The notes under the pieces were generated by a model that was not told where the DNA came from, did no database searches, and was given only the letters and a program-made list of their open reading frames with translations. From Planotetraspora phitsanulokensis (GTDB lineage Bacteria; Actinomycetota; Actinomycetes; Streptosporangiales; Streptosporangiaceae): 64,000 bases of DNA. Made by a program: the position numbers and the translations under genes. The DNA lies in contig NZ_BOOP01000001.1 of the NCBI RefSeq assembly GCF_016863295.1, positions 248,001-312,000 of the forward strand, written 5' to 3'. Of this stretch, positions 59,357 to 64,000 are shown one piece after another (within the stretch, counting starts at the first letter, position 1; every line of letters begins with the position of its first letter).

Positions 59357-60559
59357 TTGGGGATCGAGGGACCGTTCTGGCGCGCTATCGCGGTCTTCAG
59401 GATCGCCTCCGTCGTGTACGCGGCCATCCTGCTGGCACGCGCCGGCGGTTACGGACATCCCGTCGCCGGATGGCTCGTCATCGTGGTCATGGCCACCTGG
59501 ACCGCCTTCACGGCCGCGGCCTATCCCTCCGCCCGGGCGTCGTGGCCGCTGCTCCTCGCCGACCTGGCCGTGACCGCCGGGTGCCTGCTCTCGGCGCCGC
59601 TCGTGCAGGACCGGGCCGCCATCTCCGGCGGAGTGATGCCGATCACCGCGACGTGGGTCGCCGGTCCCGCACTGGCGTGGGGCGTCGCCCGGGGCCGCCG
59701 GGCCGGGGCGGCCTCCGCCGCGATCCTGTCGGCCGCCGACCTGTGGTTGCGCGGGTCACAGGGCATGAACTTCGCCTCCCTCCCGGTGAACGGCGCGGTG
59801 CTGCTCTTCCTCGCCGGGGTCGTCGTCGGCCATGTCGCCCAGCTCGCGAGGGAGGCGGAGGAGCTCATGCGGCGGGCCGTTCAGCTCGAGGCCGCCGGCC
59901 GGGAGCGCGAGCGGTTGGCCCGCGGGATCCACGACTCCGTGCTCCAGGTCCTCGCTCTCGTGCAGAGGAGGGGCGCCGAGATCGGCGGCGAAGCGGCGGA
60001 GCTCGGCAGGCTGGCCGGGGAACAGGAGTCCGCCCTGCGGGCTCTCGTCCAGGTCCCGGCGCCCACGGACGATCTCGCCGAAGACGGCCTCACAGGTCAG
60101 CGAGGACCCAGGCAGCGTGCTCTCCGGGTTCCCGGGAAGGGCGGGCCCGCCGACCGGGTCGACCTGCGCGACCTCCTCAGACCGTACGGCAGCGCGCGGG
60201 TGACGGTCTCCGCCCCCGCCACTCCGCTGTTCCTGTCGGCGGGGACGGCGCACGAGGTGGGCGCGGCCGTCGGCGCAGCGCTCGACAACGTCTCGAAGCA
60301 CTGCGCGGAGGGCACCCGCGCGTGGGTGTTCGCGGAGCAGGACGGGGAGGCGGTGACGGTGTCCGTACGGGACGAGGGGCCCGGCATTCCCGACGGACGG
60401 CTGGAGCAGGCCGCGGCCGACGGCCGGATGGGCGTCGCCCGGTCGATCCGGGGCCGCATCGCGGACATCGGGGGAACGGTGGAGATCACCTCCTCGCACG
60501 CGGGCACCGAGATCGAGCTGTCGGTCCCCGCGGACGCCGGCCGTTGGTGGCGTGTATGA
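59357..60559 (+). CDS. macS: sensor histidine kinase, MacS-like
   Basis: 400-aa NarL-group kinase. About five transmembrane helices in residues 8-160, a HisKA_3 dimerisation region with phospho-acceptor His192 in ARGIHDSVLQVL, then an ATPase domain with N-box DNVSKHC and G-box DEGPGIPDG. Resembles the MacS family, whose MacRS system affects development and antibiotic production in Streptomyces. TTG start with GGGAGGGAC upstream. Overlaps the regulator gene (ATGA). Confidence 0.87.
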   Translation: MGIEGPFWRAIAVFRIASVVYAAILLARAGGYGHPVAGWLVIVVMATWTAFTAAAYPSARASWPLLLADLAVTAGCLLSAPLVQDRAAISGGVMPITATWVAGPALAWGVARGRRAGAASAAILSAADLWLRGSQGMNFASLPVNGAVLLFLAGVVVGHVAQLAREAEELMRRAVQLEAAGRERERLARGIHDSVLQVLALVQRRGAEIGGEAAELGRLAGEQESALRALVQVPAPTDDLAEDGLTGQRGPRQRALRVPGKGGPADRVDLRDLLRPYGSARVTVSAPATPLFLSAGTAHEVGAAVGAALDNVSKHCAEGTRAWVFAEQDGEAVTVSVRDEGPGIPDGRLEQAAADGRMGVARSIRGRIADIGGTVEITSSHAGTEIELSVPADAGRWWRV

Positions 60560-61233
60560 ATGTCCGAGATCCTGGGGAGGCGGGGCCGGTCATGCGGGTC
60601 ATGGTGGTGGACGATCATCCGATGTGGCGGGACGCCGTCGCCCGCGACCTGGGCGAGGCCGGCTACGAGGTGGTGGCCAGCACGGGGGAGGGGCGGCAGG
60701 CGCTCCGCGTCGCGGCGGCCGTACGGCCCGACGTGGTGGTGCTGGACCTTCAGCTGCCGGATCTGCCGGGAGTGGAGGTCGCCAGGGGGCTCGGCGCCTC
60801 CGACGATCCGCCCCGTGTCCTCGTCCTGTCGGCGAGTGCCGAGCCTGAGGACGTCCTCGAAGCCGTCAAGGCGGGCGCATCCGGATATCTCGTGAAATCG
60901 GCGAGCAAGGAGGACTTCCTGGACGCGGTGCGGCGTACCGCGGAGGGCGACGCCGTCTTCACGCCGGGGCTGGCCGGCCTGGTGCTGGGGGAGTACCGGC
61001 GGCTGGCCGCGCAACCCGCGGCACCGGAGGGTCCGGTTCTGACCGAGCGGGAGACCGAGGTGCTGCGGCTGGTGGCCAAGGGTCTGTCCTACAGGCAGAT
61101 CGCGGCCAGGCTCGTGCTGTCCCACCGTACGGTCCAGAACCACGTGCAGAACACGCTCAGCAAGCTCCAGCTCCACAACCGGGTCGAGTTGGTGCGCTAC
61201 GCCATCGAGAAGGGCCTGACGGAACGGGACTGA
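60556..61233 (+). CDS. macR: response regulator, NarL/LuxR type, MacR-like
   Basis: 225-aa regulator: receiver domain (MRVMVVDDHPMWRDAVARDL, phospho-Asp64 in VVVLDLQLPD, Lys in GYLVKSA) and LuxR-type HTH (LTERETEVLRLVAKGLSYRQ, HRTVQNHVQNTLSKLQ). ATG 60556 overlaps the kinase stop; ATG 60592 after GGGGAGG is an alternative. Cognate partner of the kinase. Confidence 0.9.
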   Translation: MNVRDPGEAGPVMRVMVVDDHPMWRDAVARDLGEAGYEVVASTGEGRQALRVAAAVRPDVVVLDLQLPDLPGVEVARGLGASDDPPRVLVLSASAEPEDVLEAVKAGASGYLVKSASKEDFLDAVRRTAEGDAVFTPGLAGLVLGEYRRLAAQPAAPEGPVLTERETEVLRLVAKGLSYRQIAARLVLSHRTVQNHVQNTLSKLQLHNRVELVRYAIEKGLTERD

Positions 61234-61345
61234 CACCAGCGGGGGCGGACGAGCCCATGTCGTACGGCACTACAGTGGGGAAGTTCCCGCTGGGCCGGCG
61301 CGTTGTCGCCCGTGGCATGAAATGTCCGTCCGGAGGTTCCCACCT

Positions 61346-62548
61346 ATGTCGATGACCACACTCGGAGAGCCCTGCGTCCTGCTCAAGTTAGGCGAAGTCG
61401 TCCTCAAGGGCAGGAACCGCGAGCTGTTCGAGATGCGGCTGCGGGCGAACATCAAGGCGGCGCTCAAGGACTTCCCGGTGGAGATCCGTCAGCGGCACGG
61501 CGTCATCGCGTTGTTCCTCCCCGCCGGAACGGGCGTCGAGGTGGCCGAGGCGGTCGCCAAGCGGGTGTCCGACGTGCCCGGCCTGGTCCTGATCCACCTC
61601 GCGTGGCGGGTCGCCAAGGACCCCGAGGTCGTCACCAAGGCGGCCATCGAGCTCGTCAAGGACAGCGACGAGGTGGCACGCAAGGCGCACTTCGCCGTGC
61701 GGTCGCGGCGGCGGGACAAGCGGTTCCCGCTGCGCTCCAACGAGCTGGACCGCCTCGTCGGCGGCGCGATCAACGACACCTACGGCCTGCCGGTGAGCCT
61801 GAAGAACCCCGAGCTGACCGTGCACATCGAGGTCGACAGGGACGAGGTGTTCCTGTTCACCGGCGGCATCGCCGGCCAGGGAGGCCTGCCGGTCGGCTCC
61901 AGCGGCCGTGGCCTGGTGCTCATGTCGGGCGGCATCGACTCCCCGGTCGCCGCGTACCGCATGATGCGCCGCGGGCTCCGGGTGGACTTCCTGCACTTCT
62001 CCGGCATTCCGTTCACGACGTCGGAGTCGATCTACAAGGCGTACGCGCTGGTCAGGAACCTCGACAAGTTCCAGGGCAAGTCCCGCCTGTGGGTCGTGCC
62101 GTTCGGCAAGGCCCAGCAGTCGATCAGGGCGTCGGGCCAGGACCGGCTCGCCATGATCGCCCAGCGGCGGCTGATGCTGAAGACGGCCGAGGAGGTGGCC
62201 CACCGGATCCACGCCGAGGCGCTCGTCACGGGCGACTCGCTCGGTCAGGTCTCCTCCCAGACGCTGACGAACATCACCGCGCAGGACAACGCCGTCGACC
62301 TGCCGATCCTCCGGCCCCTCATCGGGCTGGACAAGACCGAGATCATCGCGGAGGCGCGGCGGATCGGCACCCTGGAGATCTCCGAGCTTCCCGATGAGGA
62401 CTGCTGCACGCTGCTGGCTCCCCGTTCCGCCGAGACCCGGGCCAAGATCGAGGACCTGAAGCTGATCGAGAAGCGCCTGGACGCCGAAGACCTGGCATCC
62501 CAGCTGGCCGACTCCATCCGCCCCTACCGCCTGGACGCCGACACCTGA
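61346..62548 (+). CDS. thiI: tRNA 4-thiouridine synthase ThiI
   Basis: 400-aa enzyme forming s4U8 in tRNA and often supplying sulfur for thiamine. Ferredoxin-like and THUMP domains (about 1-165) then a PP-loop ATPase with SGGIDS at 194-199. Cys in DEDCCTLLAP corresponds to the E. coli catalytic Cys344. There is no C-terminal rhodanese domain, so sulfur must come from another protein such as a cysteine desulfurase. GGAGG before ATG 61346 sets the start. Confidence 0.92.
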   Translation: MSMTTLGEPCVLLKLGEVVLKGRNRELFEMRLRANIKAALKDFPVEIRQRHGVIALFLPAGTGVEVAEAVAKRVSDVPGLVLIHLAWRVAKDPEVVTKAAIELVKDSDEVARKAHFAVRSRRRDKRFPLRSNELDRLVGGAINDTYGLPVSLKNPELTVHIEVDRDEVFLFTGGIAGQGGLPVGSSGRGLVLMSGGIDSPVAAYRMMRRGLRVDFLHFSGIPFTTSESIYKAYALVRNLDKFQGKSRLWVVPFGKAQQSIRASGQDRLAMIAQRRLMLKTAEEVAHRIHAEALVTGDSLGQVSSQTLTNITAQDNAVDLPILRPLIGLDKTEIIAEARRIGTLEISELPDEDCCTLLAPRSAETRAKIEDLKLIEKRLDAEDLASQLADSIRPYRLDADT

Positions 62549-62579
62549 TTCGTTGTGATCACGCCACCTCGATTTGGTT

Positions 62580-62647
62580 GTGATCATGCACAGGTTCGGC
62601 GATGTGCGCAGGTCAATCCACGCATTACCGAGCCTGTGCATGATCAC
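62580..62647. repeat. inverted pair of the TGATCATGCAC repeat between thiI and aroF
   Basis: GTGATCATGCACAGGTTCGG (62580-62599) and its reverse complement with one difference (62628-62647), 28 bp apart, between convergent genes. A shorter relative (GTGATCACGCC) lies at 62555. It can form a 20-bp stem, so it may also end transcription on both strands. Same core as at 22531 and 37068. Confidence 0.8.
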
Positions 62648-62665
62648 CCGAGAGAGGGGGGTGGA

Positions 62666-63691
62666 TCAGGCGCCTTGGGCGAGGGTTCGGGACATGAGCT
62701 TGGGGAACTCCTGCATGATCATGGCGAGCTCGTCCAGGTCGCCGTTCACCAGAGCCTGCGGGCCGTCGCACAGGGCCTGCTCGGGATGCGGGTGGACGTC
62801 GATGATCACTCCGTCCGCCCCGACGGCGATGGCAGCCCGGGTGAGGGGCAGCACGAGGTCCCGGCGGCCGCCCGAGTGGGACGGGTCGATGATGACCGGA
62901 AGGTGCGACAACCGCTGCACCACCGGCACCGCCGAGATGTCCAGGGTGTTGCGGGTCGCCGTCTCGTAGGTCCTGATGCCCCGCTCGCACAGCACGATGT
63001 CGAGGTTGCCCCGCTGCGCGATGTACTCGGCCGCCATCAGCCATTCCTCGATCGTGGCGGTCATGCCCCGCTTGAGCATGACCGGCTTGCCCGCGGCGCC
63101 CACGGCCTGGAGCAGCGCGAAGTTCTGGGCGTTGCGGGTCCCCACCTGCAGCATGTCCGCGTAGGAGGCGACCAGCGCCACGTCGTGGGCGTCGACCACC
63201 TCGGTGACGATCGGCAGGCCGGTCTGCTCCCGGACGTCCGCGAGGATGCGCAGGCCCTTCTCGCCGAGCCCCTGGAAGGCGTACGGCGAGGTCCTCGGCT
63301 TGAACGCCCCGCCGCGCAGCAGGGTCGCGCCCGCCGCCTTCGCCATCTTGGCGGCCTCGAGGGTCTGTGCCGGGGTCTCGACCGCGCACGGGCCGGCGAT
63401 GAGGGTGACGGTGTCCGGGCCGATCGGGACCCCGCGCACGGTCACGGTGGACCGTTCGGGATGGTTGTCCCTGCTGACCAGCTTGTACGGCGTGGAGACG
63501 CGCACCACGTCGGCCACGCCGGCCAGTCCCCGGAGGTTCAGCGCCGCGAACCGCTCCACGTCGCCGATCAGTCCGATGATCGTGCGGCTCACTCCGCGGC
63601 TGACGAAGGCCTCGCCCCCGGCGGAGGCGACGACGGCGACGACCGACTCGATGTCGTCCTGTGTGGCCCCGGGGGCCATGACGATGACCAT
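62666..63691 (-). CDS. aroF: 3-deoxy-7-phosphoheptulonate synthase, type I beta
   Basis: 341-aa first enzyme of the shikimate pathway, joining PEP and erythrose 4-phosphate. An N-terminal ferredoxin-like (FL) domain (1-75), the usual allosteric module, precedes the TIM barrel with IAGPCAVET, LLRGGAFKPRTSPYAFQGLG, MLKRGM and IIDPSHSGGRRD. AGAAGGAGCGTCAC precedes the ATG. A leader peptide and terminator hairpin lie directly upstream, so expression is probably controlled by attenuation. This is the KDO8P-synthase-like class, unlike the type II enzyme of M. tuberculosis. Confidence 0.94.
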   Translation of the reverse strand: MVIVMAPGATQDDIESVVAVVASAGGEAFVSRGVSRTIIGLIGDVERFAALNLRGLAGVADVVRVSTPYKLVSRDNHPERSTVTVRGVPIGPDTVTLIAGPCAVETPAQTLEAAKMAKAAGATLLRGGAFKPRTSPYAFQGLGEKGLRILADVREQTGLPIVTEVVDAHDVALVASYADMLQVGTRNAQNFALLQAVGAAGKPVMLKRGMTATIEEWLMAAEYIAQRGNLDIVLCERGIRTYETATRNTLDISAVPVVQRLSHLPVIIDPSHSGGRRDLVLPLTRAAIAVGADGVIIDVHPHPEQALCDGPQALVNGDLDELAMIMQEFPKLMSRTLAQGA

Positions 63692-63791
63692 GTGACGCTC
63701 CTTCTGACTCCGCGCCGCGGACTGACTCCGTGCGACGGAAACCCGGTGGGACTCGGTGGAACCCGTGATCTGTGGAACCCGTGAAAACGCA

Positions 63792-63825
63792 GAAGGCCCC
63801 GGATCCTTTCGGACCCGGGGCCTTC
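63792..63825 (-). terminator. attenuator hairpin in the aroF leader
   Basis: GAAGGCCCCGG / CCGGGGCCTTC with extra pairs at the tip and a UUUC-type loop, followed on the minus strand by TGCGTTTTC. It lies 14 bp after the leader-peptide stop and about 100 bp before aroF, the position of an attenuator. Confidence 0.82.
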
Positions 63826-63839
63826 GTTCGCCTTGGCTG

Positions 63840-63908
63840 TCAGCGCAGCACGTGGAGGCGATCGGTCCTCACGGGTCCGTCGCCATACCAAAACGAGAAA
63901 CTGCGCAT
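63840..63908 (-). CDS. aromatic leader peptide of aroF
   Basis: A 22-codon reading frame starting MRSFSFWYGDGP and ending in TGA before the attenuator. Four of its first eight residues are aromatic: Phe4, Phe6, Trp7, Tyr8. Stalling at these codons when Phe, Trp or Tyr is scarce would let the ribosome choose between hairpins. TATATT at 63916-63921 (minus strand) ends 7 nt before the ATG, so the transcript may be leaderless. Such leaders are known before aro and trp genes of actinobacteria. Confidence 0.82.
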   Translation of the reverse strand: MRSFSFWYGDGPVRTDRLHVLR

Positions 63909-64000
63909 GTCCCGCAATATATCCCATACATGGAAGCCCGCGTCCCCAGGCCATGGGGCCGTGGTGAGTGATCTACCCCTAGGTGACAGTATTGGTGCGT

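Follow-up and report, generated by a model that had tools for sequence, protein, structure and literature searches.

The question raised by this locus is how the aroF gene lying near the end of the window (the whole analyzed stretch of DNA, 64,000 nucleotides from Planotetraspora phitsanulokensis) is controlled, and whether the short ORF with clustered aromatic codons upstream of it belongs to an attenuator, as the initial annotation had proposed. The source genome is 9.17 Mb in size; by comparison of AroF, Planotetraspora kaengkrachanensis (98%) and P. mira (97%) are its nearest named relatives. All features described below are located on the minus strand. The aroF gene (62666..63691, 341 aa, ATG at 63691, ribosome-binding site AAGGAG at 63698..63703 by sequence) encodes, as had been stated, a DAHP synthase, which belongs to the B. 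subtilis type, with profile matches of 470 bits (NF006421) and 388 bits (TIGR01361), both above the cut-off. Upstream of it, in the order of reading, are the hexamer TATATT, resembling a −10 element (63916..63921) and placed 7 nt before the leader ATG at 63908; the presumably leaderless leader ORF of 22 aa, MRSFSFWYGDGPVRTDRLHVLR followed by a stop codon (63840..63908), with the control codons TTC TCG TTT TGG TAT for Phe4, Ser5, Phe6, Trp7 and Tyr8 (63885..63899); a spacer of 14 nt; the intrinsic terminator hairpin (63792..63825), followed by TGCGTTTTCA; and 100 nt leading to the aroF start codon. The peptide, the hairpin 14 nt downstream and the distance of about 100 nt were thus found as claimed. 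The hairpin, which was also the consensus hairpin of the alignment of leaders, is strong (15 pairs, 11 of them G-C, and a loop of 4), whereas its tail, previously described as U-rich, is a modest U-tract (TTTT). Consequently, two hallmarks of an attenuator are present, namely, a leader ORF with clustered codons for the products of the pathway and an intrinsic terminator between the leader and the structural gene.

It should be noted that a search against Rfam at E ≤ 1 over positions 60000–64000 gave three matches, none of which lay at the leader or came anywhere near its gathering score; no curated covariance model of a T-box or another Rfam cis-regulatory RNA matched there. The direct repeat CACGGGTTCCAC (63783–63772 and 63767–63756) lies between the terminator and aroF; among the 95 leader regions described below, two copies were found in one (the window's own) and at least one copy in two. 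The same genome also carries a second DAHP synthase gene, of type II (L336, G000:C40:81315-82613), before which the leader scan found no aromatic leader.

Conservation of the leader was assessed on 107 oriented aroF loci, comprising a first set (28 of 31 genomes with a match) and 80 loci kept of 445; the set includes the window's own locus, and some genomes are represented twice. A leader with an aromatic block was present in 103 of these loci, giving 95 distinct sequences. It was absent from L018 and L023, where contig ends cut the upstream region to 28 and 82 nt, and from L015 and L102, where aroF has a different neighborhood. The record containing L102 is titled as a Spirochaetaceae MAG, its AroF is 80% identical to that of the window, and it is probably a mis-binned actinobacterial contig. 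Some relatives also possess a divergent second AroF paralogue (52–55% identity; L032 and places in G109, G319 and G162). The motif TAnnnT, corresponding to TATATT of the window, was found 6–9 nt 5' of the leader start in all 95 distinct leaders (at 6–8 nt in 92), a count that is not independent of the choice of the start, which was made with TAnnnT in view; at 6–8 nt before the 694 other ATG/GTG codons of the same upstream regions, it did not occur. We infer that the leader transcript is leaderless and starts at or adjoining the leader ATG. Phe, Trp and Tyr codons were all present in 89 of the 95 leaders, and the other six had Phe and Tyr without Trp. The comparison of leader peptides in relatives, which the initial annotation had named as a test, therefore revealed conserved aromatic codons, spacing and terminator.

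Folds were computed for six leaders with the ribosome set on successive codons, and they include the alternative pairing before aroF that the initial annotation had suggested looking for: an antiterminator exclusive with the terminator, seen in the alignment as well. Directly 3' of the Tyr codon in the window, the strand GGCGACGG (63884–63877) is predicted to pair with CCG-A-TCGCC (63865–63857), forming a pause hairpin (63857..63884) that competes with the antiterminator. The main helix of the antiterminator, P1, pairs GGACCCG (63872..63878) with CGGGTCC (63811..63817), the latter being part of the terminator 5' arm. P1 usually encloses P2 (GTTCGCC with GGCGAAC) and P3 (GCTG with CAGC). In the window, P2 consists of GATCGCC (63857..63863) and GGCGAAC (63826..63832, just before the terminator) and contains one mismatch, while the inner hairpin P3 (63836..63849) spans the stop codon, and this pairing may be the reason for the conserved Leu-Arg-stop. 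When the transcript ended at the terminator 5' arm and carried no ribosome, the pause hairpin formed in L004 (the window), L022 and L103, whereas the antiterminator was already formed in L037, L080 and L056. With the ribosome on Phe or Trp, P1 formed; the inner helices of L022 and L103 were different, and L103 lacked P1 at its last Phe. The predicted energy of the window antiterminator was −30.4 to −30.7 kcal/mol for Phe and Trp stalls compared with −23.1 kcal/mol for the Tyr stall, in which part of P1 lies under the ribosome at the last Tyr. The folds suggest that Phe and Trp stalls would be more effective than Tyr stalls. With the ribosome at the stop codon, no antiterminator was possible. 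In full-length folds, the terminator was part of the minimum-energy structure for every ribosome state; to prevail, the antiterminator therefore has to form while the 3' arm is still unsynthesized, a matter of timing as in other attenuators.

The pairings were further evaluated in the alignment of the 95 leaders (91 distinct rows). The antiterminator was paired in 81.2% of cells (P1 94.5%, P2 70.1% and P3 77.1%) compared with at most 47.4% in slid controls, and the pause hairpin in 89.3% compared with at most 59.7%; the covariation scores were 0.128 versus at most 0.078 and 0.164 versus at most 0.146, respectively. Two of the five antiterminator covariation measures were not above the shuffles (both-side changes, 134/500; further pair types, 297/500). 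Column 138 of the terminator arm co-varied with both of its partners, column 48 in the leader and column 150 in the terminator 3' arm, the combinations of columns 48/138/150 being A-T-A in 68, G-C-G in 17, G-T-A in 5 and other in 5 of the 95 leaders; such joint variation is needed if the structures are to compete. Mapped on the AroF tree, the covariation goes back to two to four changes, not enough for a sign test, and the column pair 46/140 changed equally often in the opposite direction. With two to four independent changes, the covariation therefore supports the pairing without proving it.

Putative leaders of a similar kind also precede chorismate mutase genes, as well as aroF of other actinobacterial families. 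The covariance model R1, built from 36 leaders, gave full-length matches in family f20/g48, where f20 is probably Streptomyces. The genome of the window contained 15 matches to R1 at E ≤ 10, of which one was the leader, one lay on the opposite strand of the leader place and the others were partial or terminator-like. In total, 204 of 394 genomes had R1 matches, many of them to the terminator only, and they were therefore left out of the leader counts. The gene 3' of the f20 leaders encodes chorismate mutase, and PF01817 was found in all three proteins scanned (one each from f20, f48 and f50). The f20 leaders, mostly F-x-F-T-Y-G, were recorded for the chorismate mutase genes L151–L155 and L171–L200, an F-x-F-T-Y leader with a strong hairpin being present in 37 of 39 scanned. 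Genes were sampled by AroF matches at E ≤ 1e-60 (127 of 394 class genomes) and by matches to the f20 chorismate mutase at E ≤ 1e-5 (121 of 394). The leader rule was applied to 76 aroF genes (87 genomes outside f1 had a match) and to 70 chorismate mutases, with families f6 and f19 covered in part, and it identified aromatic leaders before 25 and 48 of them, respectively. No leader was found by the rule before 51 of the 76 aroF genes outside f1, and thus the device is not universal; in family f21, the rule found none before the 17 aroF genes scanned (L232, L261–L263, L268, L270–L274, L277, L280–L283, L285 and L286). These counts are affected by the rule missing some leaders, for example L160, and by the f23 aroF locus L233, which passes the rule and was kept but looks like a false positive. 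Most f20 leaders, which have CATACT as the box, escaped a stricter rule that demanded TAnnnT and a better-scoring hairpin; the two limits were relaxed after these misses had been observed, and the loosened rule was then used on both control genes. It found no leader among the 30 best-scoring loci of either type II DAHP synthase (184 of 197 genomes with a match) or prephenate dehydratase (193 of 197), and both were rejected as further members. The prephenate dehydratase loci came mostly from f19 and f28, with none from f1 or f20, so this control is narrower than it appears.

For the stalled state, leaders were compared with dinucleotide shuffles as to how much of the terminator 5' arm was paired with upstream sequence. 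The paired fraction was 0.70 versus 0.50 in the 95-leader set of aroF (n = 92; mean energy z −3.2), 0.71 versus 0.55 in other aroF leaders (n = 25; z −2.4), 0.88 versus 0.57 in f20 chorismate mutase leaders (n = 37; z −2.2) and 0.71 versus 0.53 in other chorismate mutase leaders (n = 8; z −2.1), two loci (L169 = L026 and L170 = L027) being counted in both aroF groups here and in the P1-length test. For single leaders outside f20 the test was weak: the proportion of shuffles that paired as well as the leader itself averaged 0.22, 0.36 and 0.28, compared with 0.06 in f20. The length of the P1 helix alone, compared with codon shuffles, was not above them in f20 chorismate mutase leaders (0.54), and the value for the 95-leader set of aroF was 0.13; outside that set, the length-only test was weak. 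The third hallmark of an attenuator, an antiterminator exclusive with the terminator, is thus present in the predicted structures, with pairing above the controls for the leaders as a group.

The two kinds of leader differed in their Trp codons. The tally combined the 95-leader set, less two shared genes, with the 25 further aroF leaders, and the 48 chorismate mutase leaders with four found by the model. Trp within residues 2–16 was encoded in 102 of 118 aroF leaders (it was missing from 16) but in only 4 of 52 chorismate mutase leaders; by family majority, it was present in 10 of 13 aroF groups and in 1 of 11 chorismate mutase groups (Fisher p = 0.0013). The exceptions included the aroF leaders of f28 (Trp in 0/5) and f30 (1/4), as well as 3 of the 37 f20 chorismate mutase leaders. 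Trp is made from the common pathway and not from the chorismate mutase branch, and the pattern is therefore that expected of a sensor of pathway products.

A further regularity concerned the choice of synonymous codons. In the 95-leader set, UUU made up none of the 566 Phe codons of aroF but 102 of 175 in the leaders, and UAU 4 of 437 Tyr codons of aroF but 94 of 108 in the leaders; in 24 long GC3-rich ORFs of the window, unchecked as genes, the corresponding frequencies were 3/273 and 21/204. The choice was positional: the first Phe was UUC in 54/60, the second Phe UUU in 84/86 and the last Tyr UAU in 81/91. UUU and UAU occupied the equivalent places in 37 of 37 f20 chorismate mutase leaders, while in other families the habit was common, although not strict. 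One explanation is slow wobble decoding; another is an unpaired U-rich stretch or an effect on RNA polymerase. Retention of UAU for pairing between the Tyr codon and GCCAU failed as an explanation, because of 56 leaders lacking that AU, 50 retain UAU (80 of the 95 leaders were classable). We tentatively consider, at somewhat less than even chances, that these leaders constitute an attenuator family extending over many actinobacterial families, in which the control codons would encode the wiring of the pathway (Phe, Trp and Tyr for DAHP synthase, Phe and Tyr for chorismate mutase) and the last Phe and Tyr codons would be held as rare wobble UUU and UAU, built-in slow spots setting the position of the ribosome and the sensitivity of the switch.

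With the anatomy, the conservation, the exclusive pairings in the folds and the tie of Trp to aroF rather than to chorismate mutase computed, it is highly probable that aroF is controlled by a leaderless ribosome-mediated transcription attenuator, of which the start site, termination, stalling, timing and response to each amino acid are the predicted parts. With Phe-, Trp- and Tyr-tRNA charged and plentiful, the ribosome would reach the stop codon and cover the antiterminator strands, and the terminator would end transcription upstream of aroF. With Phe or Trp (less effectively Tyr) in short supply, the ribosome would halt within F-S-F-W-Y, and the pause hairpin would be blocked because the front edge of the stalled ribosome would cover GGCGAC. 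Ahead of the synthesis of the 3' arm, GGACCCG and the remaining ORF would then pair with the terminator 5' arm and the flank upstream of it, and, with the 5' arm sequestered, transcription would proceed into aroF.

In a narrower version of this model, the attenuator would effectively respond to Phe alone, or perhaps to Phe together with Trp, and the remaining aromatic codons would be tolerated or have a structural role. The weaker antiterminator predicted for a Tyr stall, which masks part of P1, is in agreement with such a restriction, as is the lack of effect of Tyr availability on aroR of C. glutamicum described in the accessible part of a review (PMC11802643); however, of the 95 leaders, 91 have Tyr and 4 have Phe as the last aromatic residue of the block, and Trp is tied to the aroF leaders, so that we regard the restriction as possible but rather unlikely. 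The conserved peptide might instead act itself, for example as a nascent chain halting the ribosome, the terminator being a fixed partial block, and the conservation of its C-terminal half beyond the aromatic block in the 95-leader set is compatible with this. Nevertheless, this half varies in amino acids with the pairing retained (where GDGP is replaced by GYRP, GGACCC has become CGGCCC and the terminator arm has changed to match), and the f20 chorismate mutase leaders have other ends (often GCHGRAA before the stop codon). RNA pairing is therefore the better account of the conserved C-terminal half, and an active peptide is very improbable. We attach a similarly slight probability to a terminated leader transcript that forms a small RNA in its own right, with aroF transcribed from its own downstream promoter: the terminator is separated from aroF by 100 nt in the window, but a simple sigma-70 pattern found no promoter-like site in that gap, and the hairpin ends at most 30 nt from the aroF start codon in 30 of the 92 leaders measured, where any promoter would consequently overlap the terminator.

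Among known systems, trpL and pheL of enteric bacteria respond to one amino acid each and have a ribosome-binding site on the leader. The leader of the window resembles them in the control codons within the leader ORF and in the exclusive pause, antiterminator and terminator pairings, whereas it differs in the number of amino acids, the ribosome-binding site and the unrelated sequence. The nearest known system is aroR of C. glutamicum; its aroR–aroF attenuator, with a leaderless start, was reportedly described by Neshat et al. in 2014, a study cited in PMC11802643. In the available parts of two sources, aroR, located before aroF, encodes Phe-Tyr-Phe and reads more than one amino acid (Mentz et al. 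2013, PMC4046766; PMC11802643), and a response to Phe is reported in the review (PMC11802643). In both, a DAHP synthase gene is preceded by a short leader ORF that contains aromatic codons; as likened by description, aroR lacks Trp, whereas Phe, Trp and Tyr occur together in 89 of 95 leaders here, which additionally have a conserved pause hairpin and the UUU/UAU codons. The ilvB1 attenuator of M. tuberculosis, according to the part of the source available (PMC13236596), has an LVVI block through which several amino acids are read and exclusive hairpins; it is similar in these respects but concerns branched-chain amino acids and a different gene. Since aroR and ilvB1 both read several amino acids, the multi-aromatic character put forward in the initial annotation stands, but reading several amino acids is not new in itself. 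The leader peptides of Streptomyces lividans are mostly described, in the accessible portion of the paper, as leaderless with hairpins after the ORF, and the eight listed there precede leuS, leuA, trpE, trpS, alaS, ilvBHC, metN and thrS, with none before aroF or chorismate mutase (PMC8079986). In the section available of a 2005 survey of Actinobacteria, no conserved RNA structures were noted upstream of Phe/Tyr operons (PMC1262725), and neither "chorismate" nor "aromatic" occurs in the main text, as available, of the S. clavuligerus Term-seq paper (PMC8269248). Among open-license PMC papers searched by title and abstract, no prior report of the aroF leader was found. Beyond the claim of the initial annotation, the analysis adds the leaders in other families and before chorismate mutase, the tie of Trp to aroF as opposed to chorismate mutase leaders, and the rare UUU and UAU codons at fixed positions.

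Thus, the leader and the terminator very probably form a switch that would raise DAHP synthase when Phe, Trp and Tyr run short. This provides a candidate switch in soil actinobacteria for the entry enzyme of aromatic metabolism, and one of similar design for chorismate mutase. The way in which Trp codons are gained or lost according to the gene that follows amounts to a natural experiment on leader sensing, and the UUU and UAU codons at set positions allow a direct test of how wobble decoding acts in attenuation.
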